This document shows positions 53,508 to 60,683 of a stretch of DNA of 64,000 bases, piece by piece. The position numbers and the translations under genes are program-made. Each line of letters begins with the position of its first letter. Positions within the stretch are counted from its first letter, which is position 1. The DNA comes from Devosia sp. Root635 (lineage in GTDB: Bacteria > Pseudomonadota > Alphaproteobacteria > Rhizobiales > Devosiaceae). The stretch lies in assembly GCF_001427605.1 (NCBI RefSeq), contig NZ_LMGZ01000022.1, forward strand, positions 1 to 64,000, read 5' to 3'. The notes under the pieces are model-generated. The model was given only the letters and a program-made list of their open reading frames with translations, had not been told where the DNA came from and made no database searches.

Positions 53508-54179
53508 ATGCGAATCCTGCTTGTTGAAGACAATGAAGACCTGGGCGAGGCGATCGAGAAACGCCTGCGCAGCGCCGGCCATTCGGTGGAGTGGGTCAAG
53601 GACGGCGCCGAGGTGGTGCATGCTGCCGAGGGCGATGATTTCGACGCGGTAGCGCTCGACCTGATGCTGCCCAATCGCGATGGGATCAGCCTCATCGCCG
53701 AGCTGCGGAAACACAAGTTCAATGCGCCCATCCTGGTGATCACGGCGCGCTCGGAAATCGACGACAAGGTGAGCCTGCTCGACCTCGGGGCGGACGACTA
53801 CCTGGTCAAGCCCTTCGATCTGCGCGAACTCGAAGCGCGGCTGCGCGCGCTGATAAGGCGGACGGGCGGGCAGACGACGAGCATGCTGGGCGTAGGCAAT
53901 CTCGAAATGGACATGGCGGGACTCAATGCCAGCGTCGAGGGGCGGTCGCTTGAGCTGGGGCGGCGCGAATTCCGGCTGCTGGAAATTCTCGTCACCAATG
54001 CCGGCAAGGTGGTGCCCAAGGAACGGCTGATGAACCAGTTGTTCAATTTCGACGAGGCGGTTTCGGTCAATGCGCTGGAGCTGCATATCTCGCGGCTGCG
54101 CAAGAAGCTGGAAGCGGCCAATATCGAAATCGGCACGGTGCGCGGGGTGGGCTATGTGGTGCGGACGCCGCATGGATAA
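53508..54179 (+). CDS. tctD: OmpR-family response regulator (TctD-like)
   Basis: A 223-residue regulator. The receiver (1-115) has the acidic pair VEDNED, the phospho-acceptor Asp in ALDLMLPNRDG near 51 and Lys in LVKPFDLRELEARL near 101; the winged helix (125-220) shows LGRREFRLLEILVTNAGKVV and the recognition helix AVSVNALELHISRLRKKLEA. It precedes the fused TctE kinase, so it most likely controls the divergently placed tctCBA genes. The tct assignment rests on this context. Confidence 0.92.
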   Translation: MRILLVEDNEDLGEAIEKRLRSAGHSVEWVKDGAEVVHAAEGDDFDAVALDLMLPNRDGISLIAELRKHKFNAPILVITARSEIDDKVSLLDLGADDYLVKPFDLRELEARLRALIRRTGGQTTSMLGVGNLEMDMAGLNASVEGRSLELGRREFRLLEILVTNAGKVVPKERLMNQLFNFDEAVSVNALELHISRLRKKLEAANIEIGTVRGVGYVVRTPHG

Positions 54180-54210
54180 TTCGCTCCATTGCGCCTCAAC
54201 CACCGCGCGG

Positions 54211-54311
54211 CTCCTCCCCCTTGACGGGGGAGGTTGGGAGGGGGTGCTGGGAGCCCCCATTTCATCGTGGCCAGCCGCCCCCCACCCCAACCCTCCCCGC
54301 AAGGGGGAGGG
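54211..54311. repeat. Palindromic repeat between tctD and tctE (copy H)
   Basis: CTCCTCCCCCTTGACGGGGG then AGGTTGGGAGGGGGTG, and at the right CCCACCCCAACCCTCCCCGC then AAGGGGGAGGGAG. Imperfect inverted arms of about 40 bases around GCTGGGAGCCCCCATTTCAT. It lies in the gap inside the regulator-kinase operon and would fold in the transcript. Confidence 0.82.
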
Positions 54312-54334
54312 AGCCGATCGCGTTTGCGGAGGCA

Positions 54335-56806
54335 ATGGTGGCGCCCCCTAAATCCTTCTCCATCCGTCGGCGCATCGTTGCTCTGGCGCTGGCGCTGTTG
54401 CTGGGGGCGGCGGTGGTGCTGATCGTGTTCATTCGCGACTATGCCGAACGGGCGGCGGATCGGGCGTTCGACCGGTTGCTGGCGGCGTCGGCGCTGACCA
54501 TTGCCGGGGCGGTACAGGTCGAGGACGATACGGTCATCGTCGAGCTGCCCTTTGCCTCCTTCGGCATGTTTTCGGGACGAGACCGGGTGTTCTATGCGGT
54601 GGAAGACCCCGGCGGGCGGGCGGTGACCGGCTATGCCGACCTGTCGGAGAGCCTGCCGGAAATGACCTCGGCCGGGCCGGTCTTTGCCGATGCGACCTAT
54701 CATGGCGAACTGGTGCGGGTGGCCAGCGTCGGGCGGCTGACCTCGTCGGGGGGCGACGCGGACTGGGTGACCATCCATGTGGCCGAGACGCAGAGCGAAC
54801 GCGAGGCATTGGCCTCGGAAATCCTCTCCAACGCCATCGTGCCGGTAGTGGCGCTGACGCTGCTGGCCATTGCGCTGGTGTGGTTCGGCATCGGGCGCAT
54901 GTTTGCGCCGCTTTATCAGCTCGAACAGGAATTGCGCGGGCGGGCCCCCGATGACCTCTCGCCCGTGGATGTGCCGGTGCCGGTGGAGGTGAGCCATCTC
55001 GTCAGCGGCCTCAATGCCTTCATGGCGCGGCTGGGCAGCGCCATGGAACGGGTGACCGGGCTGGTGGCCGAGGCGGCGCATGAAGTGCGTACGCCGCTGG
55101 CCTCGCTGCGGGCGCAGGCCGAGGTGGCGATGGATGAGCAGGACCCCGAGGCCCTGCGGGCGCGGGTGGGGCGCATTCACCAGGGGGCGGTACAGGCAAG
55201 TCAGCTCGTGAGCCAATTGCTGATGGAAGCGACGATTTCGCACCGGCTGGAAAACCAGGAGACGGACACCACAGCCTTCGGGACGGTGGTGGAGGATGTG
55301 CGGCAACGGCTGGACCCCGACCAGGCGGGGCGGCTGGTGGTGGCGCTGCCCGAGGCCGTGGCGGCGGCCCAAATCCGCGGCGACCGGGTGGCGTTGCGCG
55401 AAATGGTGCGCAATGTGGTCGACAATGCGCTGGTCTATTCGGCCGGCATGGTGGAAATCGGCGGCAGTATCGGCGAGGGCATGATGACCATGGCGGTGCG
55501 CGACCGGGGCCCCGGCATTGCCGCGGCGGAAAAGCCGCTGGTGCTGGAGCGTTTCAAGCGCGGCGCGGCGAGTGGGGCGCGGGCTGGCTCGGGGCTGGGG
55601 CTCTCCATCGTTCGGCGGGTGGTCGAGGCGCATCGCGGGGCGTTGCGGCTCAAGGACCGCGATGGGGGCGGCCTCGTGGTTGAGATCGACCTGCCGCTGG
55701 TGGGGCGGAATCCCAAGGTGGAGCAGTTGCGGCGGGCGCTGGGGAGCCTGTCGGCGCTGGTGCTCTGCCTGCTGCTGGTGGATATCCACCCCGCAAGTGC
55801 CATATCCTCCAGCTATCCGGCGCCCGATGGCAGCGCGGCCACGGTGCTGACCATCGTGGGCACCACCGATACGCCGCTGTTTGCCGATTTCATCGCCGGC
55901 TTCCAGGCGCTGCGGCCGGATGTGACGGTGCATTACGACGAGCAGGATTCCTTGCCGATGTATCAGCAGTTCCTCGCGGGCAAGATGGCGCCGAAGCCGG
56001 ACCTCTTGATCAGCTCGGCGTCGGACCTGATGATCAAGCTGGCCAATGACGGCCATGCCATGGCCTATGACAGCCCGTTTCTCGGCGCCCTGCCCGAATG
56101 GGCGCACTGGCGCAACGAGGTGTTCGGCTTCACGTTCGAGCCGGCAGTCATCATCTACAATCCCGATCGCATCAGCGCCGACGAAGTGCCGCGGACGCAT
56201 CTGACGCTGGCGGAACTGCTGGAAACAGAGACCGAGCGGTTCCGCGGGGCCATCGCCACCTATGACATTGCGGTCAGCGGGGTGGGGTATCTGCTGGCAT
56301 CGCAGGACCAGGTGATCTCGTCGAACTTCTGGCGGCTGGCGGCGGCATTCGGGCGCGTTGGCGCAGTGTTTTCAGGGTCGAGCCCGGCCATTCTCAACGG
56401 GGTGGCCGACGGGTCGCTGGCGCTGGGCTACAATGTGCTGGGTTCCTATGCCTTCGCGCGCAAGGCCGATGGGGCCAATATCGAAATCGTGGTGCCCGAC
56501 GATTATGTGCTGGTGCTGACGCGCTCGATGCTGATCCCGCGCGATGCCCCCTACCCCGACCTGGGCCGCGCCTTTGTCGATTTCGCGCTGTCGCCGGCGG
56601 GGCAGGCCATTGCCGCCGGGCAGACGGCTTTGGGCTCGGTGGTGGCGGGGGCGAATGGCGAATGGACCAGCGAAGCCATCGCGGCGCGTGGGCGCGGGGT
56701 GATCCAGCCCATTCCGCTGGGACCGGCGCTGATGGTGTCGCTGGACCAGCAGCGGCGCAAGCGCTTCCTCGATAGCTGGGGCGAGATCGTTTCGCCCAAG
56801 CCGTGA
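54335..56806 (+). CDS. TctE-like histidine kinase fused to a periplasmic binding-protein domain
   Basis: An 823-residue protein. Residues 1-470 are a complete sensor kinase: a first membrane helix (ALALALLLGAAVVLIVFI), a periplasmic 2CSK_N-type sensor, a second helix near 175, HAMP, His249 in AAHEVRTPLAS, the N-box MVRNVVDNALVYS, and DRGPGI and GSGLGLSIV in the ATP lobe. After LPLVGRNPKVEQLRR comes a third hydrophobic segment (SLSALVLCLLLVDIHPASA) and then, from about residue 490, an ABC-type (FbpA-like) solute-binding protein of about 330 residues. The binding domain would lie in the periplasm. ATG at 54335; GTG at 54338 has better spacing. Confidence 0.85.
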   Translation: MVAPPKSFSIRRRIVALALALLLGAAVVLIVFIRDYAERAADRAFDRLLAASALTIAGAVQVEDDTVIVELPFASFGMFSGRDRVFYAVEDPGGRAVTGYADLSESLPEMTSAGPVFADATYHGELVRVASVGRLTSSGGDADWVTIHVAETQSEREALASEILSNAIVPVVALTLLAIALVWFGIGRMFAPLYQLEQELRGRAPDDLSPVDVPVPVEVSHLVSGLNAFMARLGSAMERVTGLVAEAAHEVRTPLASLRAQAEVAMDEQDPEALRARVGRIHQGAVQASQLVSQLLMEATISHRLENQETDTTAFGTVVEDVRQRLDPDQAGRLVVALPEAVAAAQIRGDRVALREMVRNVVDNALVYSAGMVEIGGSIGEGMMTMAVRDRGPGIAAAEKPLVLERFKRGAASGARAGSGLGLSIVRRVVEAHRGALRLKDRDGGGLVVEIDLPLVGRNPKVEQLRRALGSLSALVLCLLLVDIHPASAISSSYPAPDGSAATVLTIVGTTDTPLFADFIAGFQALRPDVTVHYDEQDSLPMYQQFLAGKMAPKPDLLISSASDLMIKLANDGHAMAYDSPFLGALPEWAHWRNEVFGFTFEPAVIIYNPDRISADEVPRTHLTLAELLETETERFRGAIATYDIAVSGVGYLLASQDQVISSNFWRLAAAFGRVGAVFSGSSPAILNGVADGSLALGYNVLGSYAFARKADGANIEIVVPDDYVLVLTRSMLIPRDAPYPDLGRAFVDFALSPAGQAIAAGQTALGSVVAGANGEWTSEAIAARGRGVIQPIPLGPALMVSLDQQRRKRFLDSWGEIVSPKP

Positions 56807-57535: not shown

Positions 57536-59083
57536 TCAGTCCTCGTCGGCCGCGAGCTGGCTGAAGACCTCGCCTTTGCCGCGCAGGCGGAACCAGAGCG
57601 GAATCAGCACTGCCGCCGCCGCAATGACATAAAGGCTGATGGCCAGCGGCGACTGTATCAGCACCAGCGGATCGCCCTGGCTGATGGCCAGTGCCCGGCG
57701 CAGCTGCTGCTCGGACAGCGGACCCAGGATGAGCCCGATCACCACCGGGGCGATGGGGTATCCGAAGCGGCGCAGCACAAACCCCAGGATGCCGAACCCC
57801 AGCAGCATCATCAGCTCGAACGAGAAGCGGATGCCGAACAGGTTGCCGGACATGGCGCCATTGGCCCCCAGCGTGCCCAGCGTGGCAAAGAGCAGGATGC
57901 CGGCATAGAGCCAGGGCTTGGGCACTGTGAGGAGCCGGACCCAGAGGCCGATCAGCGGCAGGTTGAGCACCAGCAGCATGAAATTGGCGACCAGCAGGCT
58001 GGCAATAAGCGCCCAGACCAGCGGGGCATTGTTGGTGAACAGCAAGGGCCCCGGCTGCAGGCCGAATTGCTGGAAGCCCGCCAGCATGATGGCGGCGGTG
58101 GCCGTGGTGGGCAGCCCCAGCGTGAGCAAGGGCATCAAGGTGCCGGCGGCCGAGGCATTGTTGGCGGCTTCGGGACCGGCGACGCCTTCGATGGCGCCAT
58201 TGCCGAATTCTTCGGGGTGCTTGGTCAGACGCCGTTCGGCCGCATAGGAAAAGAACGTGCCGATCTCGGCGCCACCGGCCGGCATGGCGCCGATGGGGAA
58301 GCCGATGAGGGTGCCGCGCAGCCAGGCCGGCCAGGAGCGCTTCCAATCCTCCAACGTCATCCAGACCGAGCCTTTGACGGCCACGACTTCATCATCGAGA
58401 CTGCCGCGGGCTGCGGCAACGACGAGGGTTTCACCGATGGCGAACAGGGCCACGGCCAGGGTCGTCACCTCGATCCCGTCGAGCAGGTCGGGGATGCCGA
58501 AGGCCAGGCGCGCCTGCCCAGTCTGCAGGTCGATGCCGATAACGCCCAGTCCAAGCCCGATAAAGAGCGCAGTGACGCCGCGAAGCGCGCTATCGCCGAA
58601 GGCCGCCGAGACGGTGACAAAGGCCAGCACCATCAGCGCGAAATAGTCGGCCGGGCCAAAGGAAATGGCGATCCTGACCAACCAGGGGGCAACGAAGGCC
58701 ATGGCCAGCGTCGCGATCAGGCCTGCCACGAAGGAGCCGATGGCGGCGGTGGCCAGAGCCGGACCGCCCCTGCCTTTGCGGGCCATCTTGTTGCCCTCGA
58801 GCGCGGTGACGATCGAGGCGGATTCACCGGGCGTGTTGAGCAGGATGGAGGTGGTCGAGCCGCCATACATGCCACCGTAGTAGATGCCGGCGAACATGAT
58901 GAGCGAGCCGGCCGGATCGAGGCGATAGGTAACGGGCAGCAACAGGGCCACCGTCAGCGCCGGGCCGATGCCGGGGAGAACGCCCACGGCGGTCCCCAGG
59001 GTAACGCCGATAAAGGCGTAGATGAGGTTCTGCCATTGCAGGGCGGCGGCAAAGCCGGCTGCCAGAAGTCCGAAAGTGTCCAT
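57536..59083 (-). CDS. tctA: Tripartite tricarboxylate transporter, large membrane subunit
   Basis: A 515-residue inner-membrane subunit of the TTT family with about twelve membrane segments. The N-terminal signature [20 protein letters not shown] near residue 38 and [20 protein letters not shown] near 68 are diagnostic; the mirror motif [20 protein letters not shown] lies near 256. It moves citrate or other tricarboxylates, driven by an ion gradient, from the TctC binding protein. Last gene of tctC-tctB-tctA. Confidence 0.96.
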
Positions 59084-59098
59084 AATCGTCCTTCCCGA

Positions 59099-59581
59099 TC
59101 AGGGAATCAGGCGCTCAAGTGGCCCGGCAGGCAGGGAAAGCTGCAAACCGCGGGCAAAAATGAACCATACGATGAAAGCGAAAACAGCGCCGCACAGGAA
59201 GGTGAACCACATCGGTCCCTTGCCGAAGGCCCTGGCGGTGCAGGCAACCAGGACACCAGAAGCCAGGGAGAAGCCCAGGCTCGAAACCAGCAGGATCTGG
59301 CCCAGCAGTCCGCCCACGATCCACAGGGCCGGTCCGTAGTTCTCGGGTGGACGGGCAGGAAAGCTGCCGCGCCAGGCCGAGACCGCGGTGCCAATGGCCA
59401 GCAGCAGCAGGCCGGCGGCTATGGCATAGGGGAAAACCTGGGGCCCGACGCGCGCCTGGTGAACCGGCAGGCGCATGATGCTGGTCTGCCAGAAGATGAC
59501 CACGGCAATGCCCGCCAGGATGAGGGCAATGACAAACGCCGCCCCATCGGGGCGGCGTTGCGGGTTGGACCCAGTCGTCAT
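59099..59581 (-). CDS. tctB: Tripartite tricarboxylate transporter, small membrane subunit
   Basis: A 160-residue membrane protein with four hydrophobic segments and the TctB/DUF1468 pattern LPVHQARVGPQVFPYAIAAG near residue 38. It completes the TTT complex with TctA and TctC. The ATG overlaps the tctC stop codon (ATGA), and tctA follows 15 bases later. Confidence 0.92.
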   Translation of the reverse strand: MTTGSNPQRRPDGAAFVIALILAGIAVVIFWQTSIMRLPVHQARVGPQVFPYAIAAGLLLLAIGTAVSAWRGSFPARPPENYGPALWIVGGLLGQILLVSSLGFSLASGVLVACTARAFGKGPMWFTFLCGAVFAFIVWFIFARGLQLSLPAGPLERLIP

Positions 59582-60516
59582 TGGACGAGGCCGATATCTT
59601 TGAGAACCGTGGTGGTCGACGCGATGTCGGCGTCGAGCTGGGTGTCGAAGGCATCGCCATCGAGATACATATCCACCCAACCCTTGGTCTCGAGGATCGA
59701 CTTCCAGGTTGCCGATTCCGCCATCTTCTTGATGTCGGCGGTGATGGCGGCCTTCTGCTCGTCGGTGATATCGGGGGCAGCGGCAATCATGCGCCAGTTT
59801 TCGACAGTCACATCCACACCGGTTTCAGAGAGGGTGGGGATGCCATCCATCTCGTTCTCACCGGACATGGCCAGCGCCCGCAGCTCACCGGCGGCGATCT
59901 GCGATTCAAATTCGCCATAGCCGGAAATGCCCACGGTCACCTGGCCACCCAGCACGGCGGCAAGCGCCTCGCCACCGCCCGAATAGGCGATGTAGTTGAC
60001 CTGGGTGGGATCGACGCCAACTGCCTTGGCCACAAGGCCGGCAATGATGTGGTCGACACCGCCGGCCGAACCGCCGGCCCAGGACACCGACCCCGGATCG
60101 GCCTTGAGCTTGGCAACCAGGTCATCCATGGACTGCAGCTCGGAATTGGCCGGCACGACGATGACGTCGGATTCGCCGATCAGGCGGGCGATCGGGGTGA
60201 TGTTGTCCAGCGTGACGGGCGAAGCATTGGTGAGAATGGCACCGACCATCACATAGCCGCCGACGATCAGGGCATTGGCATTGCCCGAATCCTGGGTGGC
60301 GAACTGGGCGAGGCCGATCGTGCCGCCGGCGCCCGGAACGTTGGTGACCTGCACATTGCCCGAAATACCTTCGGCGGTGAGTGCTTCCTGGATGGAACGG
60401 GCCGTCTGGTCCCAGCCGCCGCCGGGAGCGGCGGGGGCCATGATGGTGTAGTCGGCGGCGAAAGCGGGAACAGCCATTGCGCCAGAGACGAGCGCGGCCA
60501 AGAGCAGCTTGTTCAT
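59578..60516 (-). CDS. tctC: Tripartite tricarboxylate transporter, binding protein
   Basis: A 312-residue periplasmic protein of the Bug/TctC family. The signal peptide [20 protein letters not shown] precedes [20 protein letters not shown], and the Asp-containing loop [16 protein letters not shown] follows, both hallmarks of the family. [14 protein letters not shown] near residue 142 is the second ligand loop. Ligand is probably a tri- or dicarboxylate. The ATG at 60516 has GGGAGGACTT upstream. First gene of tctCBA; expression is probably controlled by the TctD/TctE pair at 53.5-56.8 kb. Confidence 0.95.
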
Positions 60517-60683
60517 AAGTCCTCCCATGTGAATATCCAGAACGTCATTGCGTTCGTGACGGGGAGAATAGGCGGCGTCCCTGTCACCGTCCTGTCAGCA
60601 CGGCGCGGGCGCCTTGCGACTTTGGTCCAGTCGGATACTTCTCAGCCAGATTGCGCCAGCGGGCCGACAATTGCAACGCCGGC

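Follow-up and report, generated by a model that had tools for sequence, protein, structure and literature searches.

How does a sensor kinase come to carry a binding protein at its C-terminal end, and do the two parts stay together once they are made? This question is raised by a gene at positions 54335 to 56806 (plus strand) of a 64,000-nucleotide stretch of Devosia sp. Root635 (contig NZ_LMGZ01000022.1, positions 1 to 64,000), hereafter called the window. In this gene, a single open frame runs from an ATG at 54335 to a stop codon at 56804-56806 and encodes 823 amino acids, in which a histidine kinase is followed by a binding protein. We propose, with a probability of roughly 70%, that the gene encodes a two-protein precursor (polyprotein) giving a kinase and a freed MctA-like co-sensor, which would switch on the tricarboxylate transporter genes tctCBA. 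The parts of the gene were mapped as follows.

54335..56806, plus strand: fused open reading frame, kinase plus binding protein, 823 amino acids (open frame, Pfam, conservation in the genus)
54383..54433, plus strand: transmembrane segment 1, residues ~17-33 (hydropathy)
54401..54823, plus strand: 2CSK_N sensor region, residues 23-163 (Pfam PF08521, E 8.5e-35)
54836..54886, plus strand: transmembrane segment 2, residues ~168-184 (hydropathy)
55061..55237, plus strand: HisKA, residues 243-301, with phospho-acceptor His249 (Pfam; H249 invariant in the alignment)
55379..55699, plus strand: HATPase_c, residues 349-455 (Pfam; invariant columns)
55697..55801, plus strand: predicted internal signal peptide, residues 455-489 (sequence layout, column conservation)
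55802..56803, plus strand: predicted mature binding protein, residues 490-823, with an MctA/3c9h-like fold (AlphaFold, Foldseek, citrate-site positions)

The Pfam domains of the protein (2CSK_N, HisKA, HATPase_c and SBP_bac) all exceeded their curated cut-offs, and the binding part was matched by SBP_bac_11, SBP_bac_1, SBP_bac_8 and SBP_bac_6 between residues 513 and 776. The catalytic motifs of the kinase are intact; H249, N360, N364, D390, G392, G394, G420 and G422 were invariant in an 88-row alignment. Between the two parts, hydropathy indicated a third hydrophobic segment at about residues 468-484, which is preceded by a short stretch bearing Arg and Lys and followed by the motif PASA (residues 486-489). 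The domain order given by the initial annotation, namely kinase, third hydrophobic segment and binding protein, was therefore borne out by the open frame, Pfam and hydropathy. A cut by signal peptidase I is predicted after Ala489, which corresponds to the junction of bases 55801 and 55802.

Conservation around this predicted site was analyzed by column in 51 non-redundant fused proteins. Ala489, at position -1, was kept in 50 of 51 proteins with an entropy of 0.14 bit, the minimum over columns 455-493. Residue 487, at position -3, was mostly small (A in 35, T in 7, V in 4, P in 2, S in 2 and G in 1), and residue 488, at position -2, varied freely (2.99 bits). The codons at position 489 were GCG in 22 genes, GCC in 19, GCA in 5, GCT in 4 and ACG in 1; all four GCN codons are used, and therefore it is the residue, not the DNA, that is conserved. 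In a wider set of 36 non-redundant fused rows, which partly contains the same proteins, Ala489 was found in all 35 filled positions. Segment 3 is also shorter and less hydrophobic than the other two, with a best 19-residue hydropathy mean of 1.83 versus 3.13 for segment 1 and 2.54 for segment 2, and a net charge of at least +1 lies ahead of it in 50 of the 51 proteins. The motif [ATV]xA within 12 residues of the hydrophobic core was present at segment 3 in 46/51 proteins, compared with 4/51 at segment 1 and 2/51 at the outer flank of segment 2.

Unfused binding proteins mostly start with an ordinary signal peptide (46 rows, some of them fragments), and a signal-peptidase-type site was found near their own N-terminus in 62/77 by the strict rule and in 76/77 by the lax rule. 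The fused proteins have the same kind of layout inside the chain, an n/h/c arrangement with a conserved (-3,-1) site, as in polyproteins with an internal cleaved signal peptide. From this pattern of residues, we conclude that a putative signal-peptidase-I site at Ala489 has been maintained by selection, and the simplest reason for keeping such a site would be that it is cut. The initial annotation had mentioned PASA as a possible signal-peptidase site, and the kept Ala489 makes this now the better reading.

The distribution of the fusion was surveyed in 75 genomes of the genus Devosia. An unbroken fused frame of at least 818 amino acids was present in 53 of them, with a binding-protein part 75-100% identical to that of the window, and no match above 44% identity was found in 17 of the 75. 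In the rest, the gene was cut by a contig end (G088), frameshifted (G010 and G085) or present as two genes (G003 and G094). Devosia sp. Root436 is among the nearest named relatives, with 95% identity over the binding domain among the best 80 of at least 567 loci. Relatives of the binding domain were found at E ≤1e-30 in 111 of 397 genomes of the order and at E ≤1e-40 in 60 of 398 genomes of the phylum, the phylum matches being counted without sorting into fused and split; 40 order loci were compared, selected for a high rank among the matches and for long open frames, plus a few others. Named fused genes were found in Devosia, Aureimonas, Pararhizobium, Paracoccaceae, Achromobacter, Alcaligenes, Pollutimonas, Azospirillum and a Roseomonas record, and also on a Peteryoungia plasmid, where the fusion is annotated as one gene. 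Hence, the fusion spans Alpha- and Betaproteobacteria beyond Devosia, and the domain order sought in other genomes was recovered well outside the window. In titles and abstract openings of the literature, where most subscription journals were not covered, no kinase fused C-terminally to a binding protein was found. As a separate observation, an additional fused gene for kinase and binding protein, divergent from the first and with its own regulator, was present in each of two Devosia genomes (L027, 4965-7367; L127, 4034-6400), with an identity of 32-41% depending on the part.

A separate binding-protein gene, which the initial annotation expected in related loci, is indeed common. Among 196 binding-domain rows, a redundant set and not a random sample, 100 were fused, 56 had the kinase upstream on the same strand, 24 on the other strand and 3 downstream, and 13 were in kinase-less loci. 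Without redundancy, 36 of 113 rows were fused and 77 unfused, although some of the latter are transporter proteins or sit in kinase-less loci. Where kinase and binding-protein genes follow one another on one strand, 39 of 45 non-redundant pairs overlap as ATGA or GTGA. In Devosia G003 and G094, the response regulator, binding protein and histidine kinase are encoded in this order by three separate genes, 65-71% identical to the parts in the window; the kinase of G003 ends without the third segment and its binding protein has its own signal peptide. Both genomes nest inside the fused clade in a tree of the binding domain, and forcing 28 fused rows apart from them cost 31.2 log units (p-AU 0.0018 in the approximately unbiased test), for a group that was defined once the first tree was known. 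Because of this nesting, the fusion was probably undone in the lineage of G003 and G094, perhaps through a duplication after which each copy lost a different half. On well-supported branches of this quick, unrooted tree, which was built from the binding domain alone and contains two uncertain long rows (L131 and L027), the fused or split state changed at least five times, in one direction or the other.

Several observations weigh against a precursor that is cut at Ala489. A looser motif control was less sharp, with strict matches in 27/36 at segment 3 versus 16/36 at segment 1 and lax matches in 36/36 versus 27/36; the motif count was therefore dropped as a sole argument, and we rely mainly on the column analysis. 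The column counts in turn depend on MAFFT alignments, which are possibly biased to lining up alanines. The linker in the window also contains an in-frame TTG behind GGTGGAG, 24 residues ahead of Ala489, some relatives have an ATG at this place, and an internal start with a GGAG-like sequence before it occurs in 14 of the 51 fused genes. These starts would suit another explanation, in which translation beginning within the linker supplies some or most of the binding protein, and the fusion arose as a side effect of gene overlap. However, 8 of the 51 genes have no ATG, GTG or TTG in the stretch 455-475, so that an internal start is not conserved, and the GGAG-like sequence is restricted to the minority given above. 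Moreover, if internal starts were sufficient, loss of the kinase stop codon would be needless, and the split relatives keep this stop. We consider translation from two starts quite improbable.

If segment 3 were instead an uncut membrane anchor, the binding domain would stay in place as the attached ligand domain of the receptor, a topology that the initial annotation had put forward as its main reading. A permanent tether through the kinase C-terminus would be consistent with a continuous frame kept in 53/75 genus genomes and in several families, and with the repeated changes between the fused and split states, which look as though attachment could be useful. Yet an idle signal-peptidase site would be expected to decay, and Ala489 is kept; segment 3 is the weakest of the three segments, and two Devosia genomes nested in the fused clade encode separate proteins. 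A model of the full-length protein (pTM, the predicted template modelling score, 0.48) did not fix the placement of the domains and is strong for neither side. Compared with cleavage at the conserved (-3,-1) site, therefore, a permanent tether appears unlikely. An artefact of sequencing or assembly that joins two genes was also weighed, since G010 (L020) and G085 (L125) do have frameshifts in the fused gene. In these genomes, several neighbors including the tct genes are broken as well, and for this reason the breaks are read as assembly errors in error-prone assemblies. Independent assemblies, comprising the 53 intact genus genomes, named assemblies of several families and the plasmid record, carry the fusion intact, and the artefact has next to no chance of being correct. 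It was accordingly rejected. The initial annotation had allowed that separate genes in close relatives might expose the fusion as a sequencing error; this fails for the 53 intact genomes, and the real split pairs of G003 and G094 lie within the fused clade.

We then considered the ligand of the binding domain that the precursor would release. Its AlphaFold model had a mean predicted local distance difference test score (pLDDT) of 95.0, and Foldseek placed it closest to 3c9h, with a template modelling (TM) score of 0.91-0.92, and to the MctA metal-citrate entries (TM 0.86-0.89, 31-32% identity), which outranked phosphosugar and iron binders by a wide margin; phmmer matched the MctA-like protein at E 6.1e-41. 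Residues D28, S79, S164, T199 and Y221 of MctA correspond here to D512, S561, S648, S683 and Y705, where the site positions were taken from the titles of mutant entries in PDB and a numbering offset of 2 was inferred from the chain sequence. Thus, the D, S, S and Y of the MctA site are kept and T199 is replaced by S, and most of 90 rows have either the same residues or conservative replacements at these positions. On the other side of the balance, S26 of MctA is not kept, its equivalent T510 is variable, and MctA-like residues do not prove a ligand. The ligand would probably be citrate, a metal-citrate complex or a similar tricarboxylate. An FbpA-like domain, as initially annotated, holds in the wide sense only, because the closest relatives of solved structure are 3c9h and MctA, with the iron FbpAs at a far greater distance. 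The idea that an FbpA senses iron was likewise a candidate, and it was weakened by sequence and fold searches in which MctA and 3c9h were far closer than FbpA/HitA. The possibility that the binding domain docks stably on the sensor region of the kinase was considered as well and was not supported by the full-length model, in which residues 465-486 had a pLDDT below 50, the domain placement was not fixed and pTM was 0.48.

The genes around the fused gene, and a repeat upstream of tctC, were mapped as follows.

53508..54179, plus strand: OmpR-family response regulator, TctD-like (Response_reg and Trans_reg_C above cut-off)
57536..59083, minus strand: tctA (Pfam PF01970, E 7.2e-148)
59099..59680, minus strand: tctB (Pfam PF07331)
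59578..60528, minus strand: tctC (Pfam PF03401)
60580..60597, minus strand: direct repeat TGACAGGACGGTGACAGG upstream of tctC, a probable operator of the response regulator (alignment and motif scan)

For the response regulator, the best NCBIfam model was TctD with 202.6 bits; this falls short of the cut-off of 337, and therefore the protein is called TctD-like and is not assigned as TctD. A kinase with 2CSK_N, HisKA and HATPase_c stands here beside an OmpR-type regulator, which is the domain make-up of TctDE/BctDE-type systems. Downstream of the fused gene, tctC, tctB and tctA occupy 60528-57536 on the opposite (minus) strand. The true start of tctC is probably the ATG at 60516, behind GGGAGG, and that of tctB probably lies further downstream, near 59584; most relatives of tctB align only from about residue 34. 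Linkage to tctCBA was found in the window and in many relatives; the genes are not adjacent in some Devosia genomes, and the linkage was not seen in the Achromobacter loci. By eye, a G+C-rich inverted repeat resembling repetitive extragenic palindromes (REP-like) was noticed at 54200-54320 in the gap between the regulator and kinase genes, which in several relatives nearly touch or overlap.

The probable operator has the form TGACAG-N5-TGACAG, and an 11-base period is usual for sites of OmpR-type regulators. This form emerged from an alignment of 22 tctC upstream sequences, the one in the window included, of which 14 rows were displayed. Within 250 bases upstream of tctC in 33 non-redundant loci, the repeat was perfect in 13, had at most one mismatch in 23 and at most two in 28, compared with 0.25 loci predicted by mononucleotide shuffles for at most two mismatches. 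In six Devosia genomes, no tct gene was seen within the 2-5 kb beside the fused gene; there, tctC sits 33-46 kb away, and a perfect site immediately precedes it in 6/6. G090 has a second perfect site, located at the gene of the regulator that belongs to its additional, divergent fused system. In the divergent systems noted above, the regulator gene is immediately preceded by a TGACAG repeat, which is perfect in L127 and has one mismatch in L027. In two Rhodobacteraceae loci (L186, 4993-5020; L187, 5040-5067), three tandem TGACAG repeats, found as two overlapping matches, lie upstream of tctC.

Other counts tell against such an operator. A good repeat was missing from 5 of the 33 tctC upstream regions, and a site with at most two mismatches was also found in 27 of 100 shuffled windows, so that the window alone proves little. 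In the six Devosia genomes, 24 sites had at most one mismatch, of which 7 were beside response regulator, histidine kinase, binding-protein or Tct genes and 17 were not. The genome of the window itself has two one-mismatch sites and one further perfect site, TGACAGG-N4-TGACAG at G000:C19:125556-125572 (L280); this perfect site has no response regulator, histidine kinase, binding-protein or Tct match beside it and may be a chance occurrence or an additional target. By eye, a gene of the GGDEF/EAL type lies near the L280 site. Finally, the Azospirillum-type fused loci L207, L214 and L217 lacked the repeat in the stretch scanned, and L204 had only a one-mismatch site 2.9 kb downstream.

In L192, L193, L200, L201 and L202 (Achromobacter, Alcaligenes and related), a repeat with 0-1 mismatch lies at or just past the end of the fused gene and precedes a second binding-protein gene. 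In Achromobacter sp. L192 (5182-8996), genes for a second MctA-like binding protein, a permease and an ATP-binding cassette (ABC) ATPase lie downstream of the fused gene, the last two named by eye from sequence, and these downstream genes are possibly an importer controlled by the fused gene product. Because the transporter has its own binding protein in both settings, tct and L192-type, the fused copy appears to be reserved for sensing. The initial annotation had suggested a connection with the tct transporter and a tricarboxylate, and this has gained support of an indirect kind from the fold, the ligand-site residues and the repeat before tctC.

What the sequences show directly is the conserved fused frame with its conserved cleavage motif, the relatives with split genes, a lineage in which the genes were split again, the residues of the ligand site, and the repeat; from these we infer cleavage, docking, ligand, signalling and regulation in the proposed precursor. 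Residues 1 to ~489 would form a TctE/BctE-like sensor kinase and residues 490-823 an MctA-like periplasmic binding protein, whose own signal peptide, made internal, would be the third hydrophobic segment. Sec would export the C-terminal part and signal peptidase I would cut after Ala489, setting the binding protein free in the periplasm and leaving the spent signal peptide as a third membrane segment of the kinase. The ligand-loaded binding protein may then dock on the 2CSK_N region, the kinase would phosphorylate the response regulator, and the phosphorylated regulator would bind TGACAG-N5-TGACAG and raise tctCBA expression. The fusion would fix kinase and co-sensor at 1:1, a ratio that unfused relatives may approach by overlapping stop and start codons. 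A caution comes from PMC11113362: the products of adjacent binding-protein and kinase genes need not interact, as an interaction of PA4985 with AruS was not seen. Processing may even act as signalling, if the uncut precursor is a distinct functional state, for example with the kinase locked off or preloaded, and if the cut or its extent sets the sensitivity of the kinase; we regard this as a long shot, although, if true, it would provide a sensor kinase matured by signal peptidase.

To our knowledge, little work has addressed how cells keep a binding protein and its kinase in step. Here, the pair occurs in one frame in several lineages, with a cleavage motif kept across families and a fusion apparently undone once. 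The fused, overlapping and re-split forms offer ready comparisons on the role of stoichiometry or attachment in binding-protein sensing, and the conserved repeat upstream of tctC provides a testable regulon. It should also be considered that annotation as an extracellular solute-binding protein can hide the kinase in such genes.

Among known systems, the one-frame arrangement resembles that of FbcH, the cytochrome b/c1 precursor of Bradyrhizobium, in which one frame gives two mature proteins after an internal signal peptide is cut by signal peptidase; however, FbcH belongs to a respiratory complex, not a sensor, and has no sequence relation to the present protein. In BvgS and EvgS, binding-like domains precede the kinase core as a sensor region and remain attached, whereas the binding domain here is C-terminal (residues 490-823), not before the kinase core. 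PMC8534201 describes BvgS and EvgS as kinases with periplasmic binding-protein-like domains. MctA (PDB 7f6e and others) and 3c9h of Agrobacterium are the closest in fold and sequence, and most positions of the citrate site of MctA are kept; they are titled as binding proteins of ABC transporters, however, and the titles give no link to a kinase gene. In Staphylococcus aureus, the binding protein HptA and the sensor region of the kinase HptS form a complex (6LKG), and 6lkg appeared at rank 49 in the fold search with our binding domain; according to PMC8534201, HptA and HptS differ from the present pair in being separate proteins, with glucose-6-phosphate as the ligand and a double-PDC sensor. 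PMC11113362 states that many kinases which respond to a binding protein have their gene next to that of the binding protein. In the tripartite tricarboxylate system of Bordetella, as reported in PMC5812351 and PMC9602780, citrate-loaded BctC interacts with the kinase BctE and raises bctCBA expression; a two-component system by tctCBA-type genes is likewise informed there by a ligand-loaded periplasmic protein. Bordetella, however, senses with the TctC-type protein of the transporter, whereas a second, MctA-like protein is in the kinase frame here and the Devosia locus keeps a separate tctC beside the fused gene. Kinases informed by binding proteins, in the manner of BctDE and HptSA, are already known; here, the pair is encoded in one frame.

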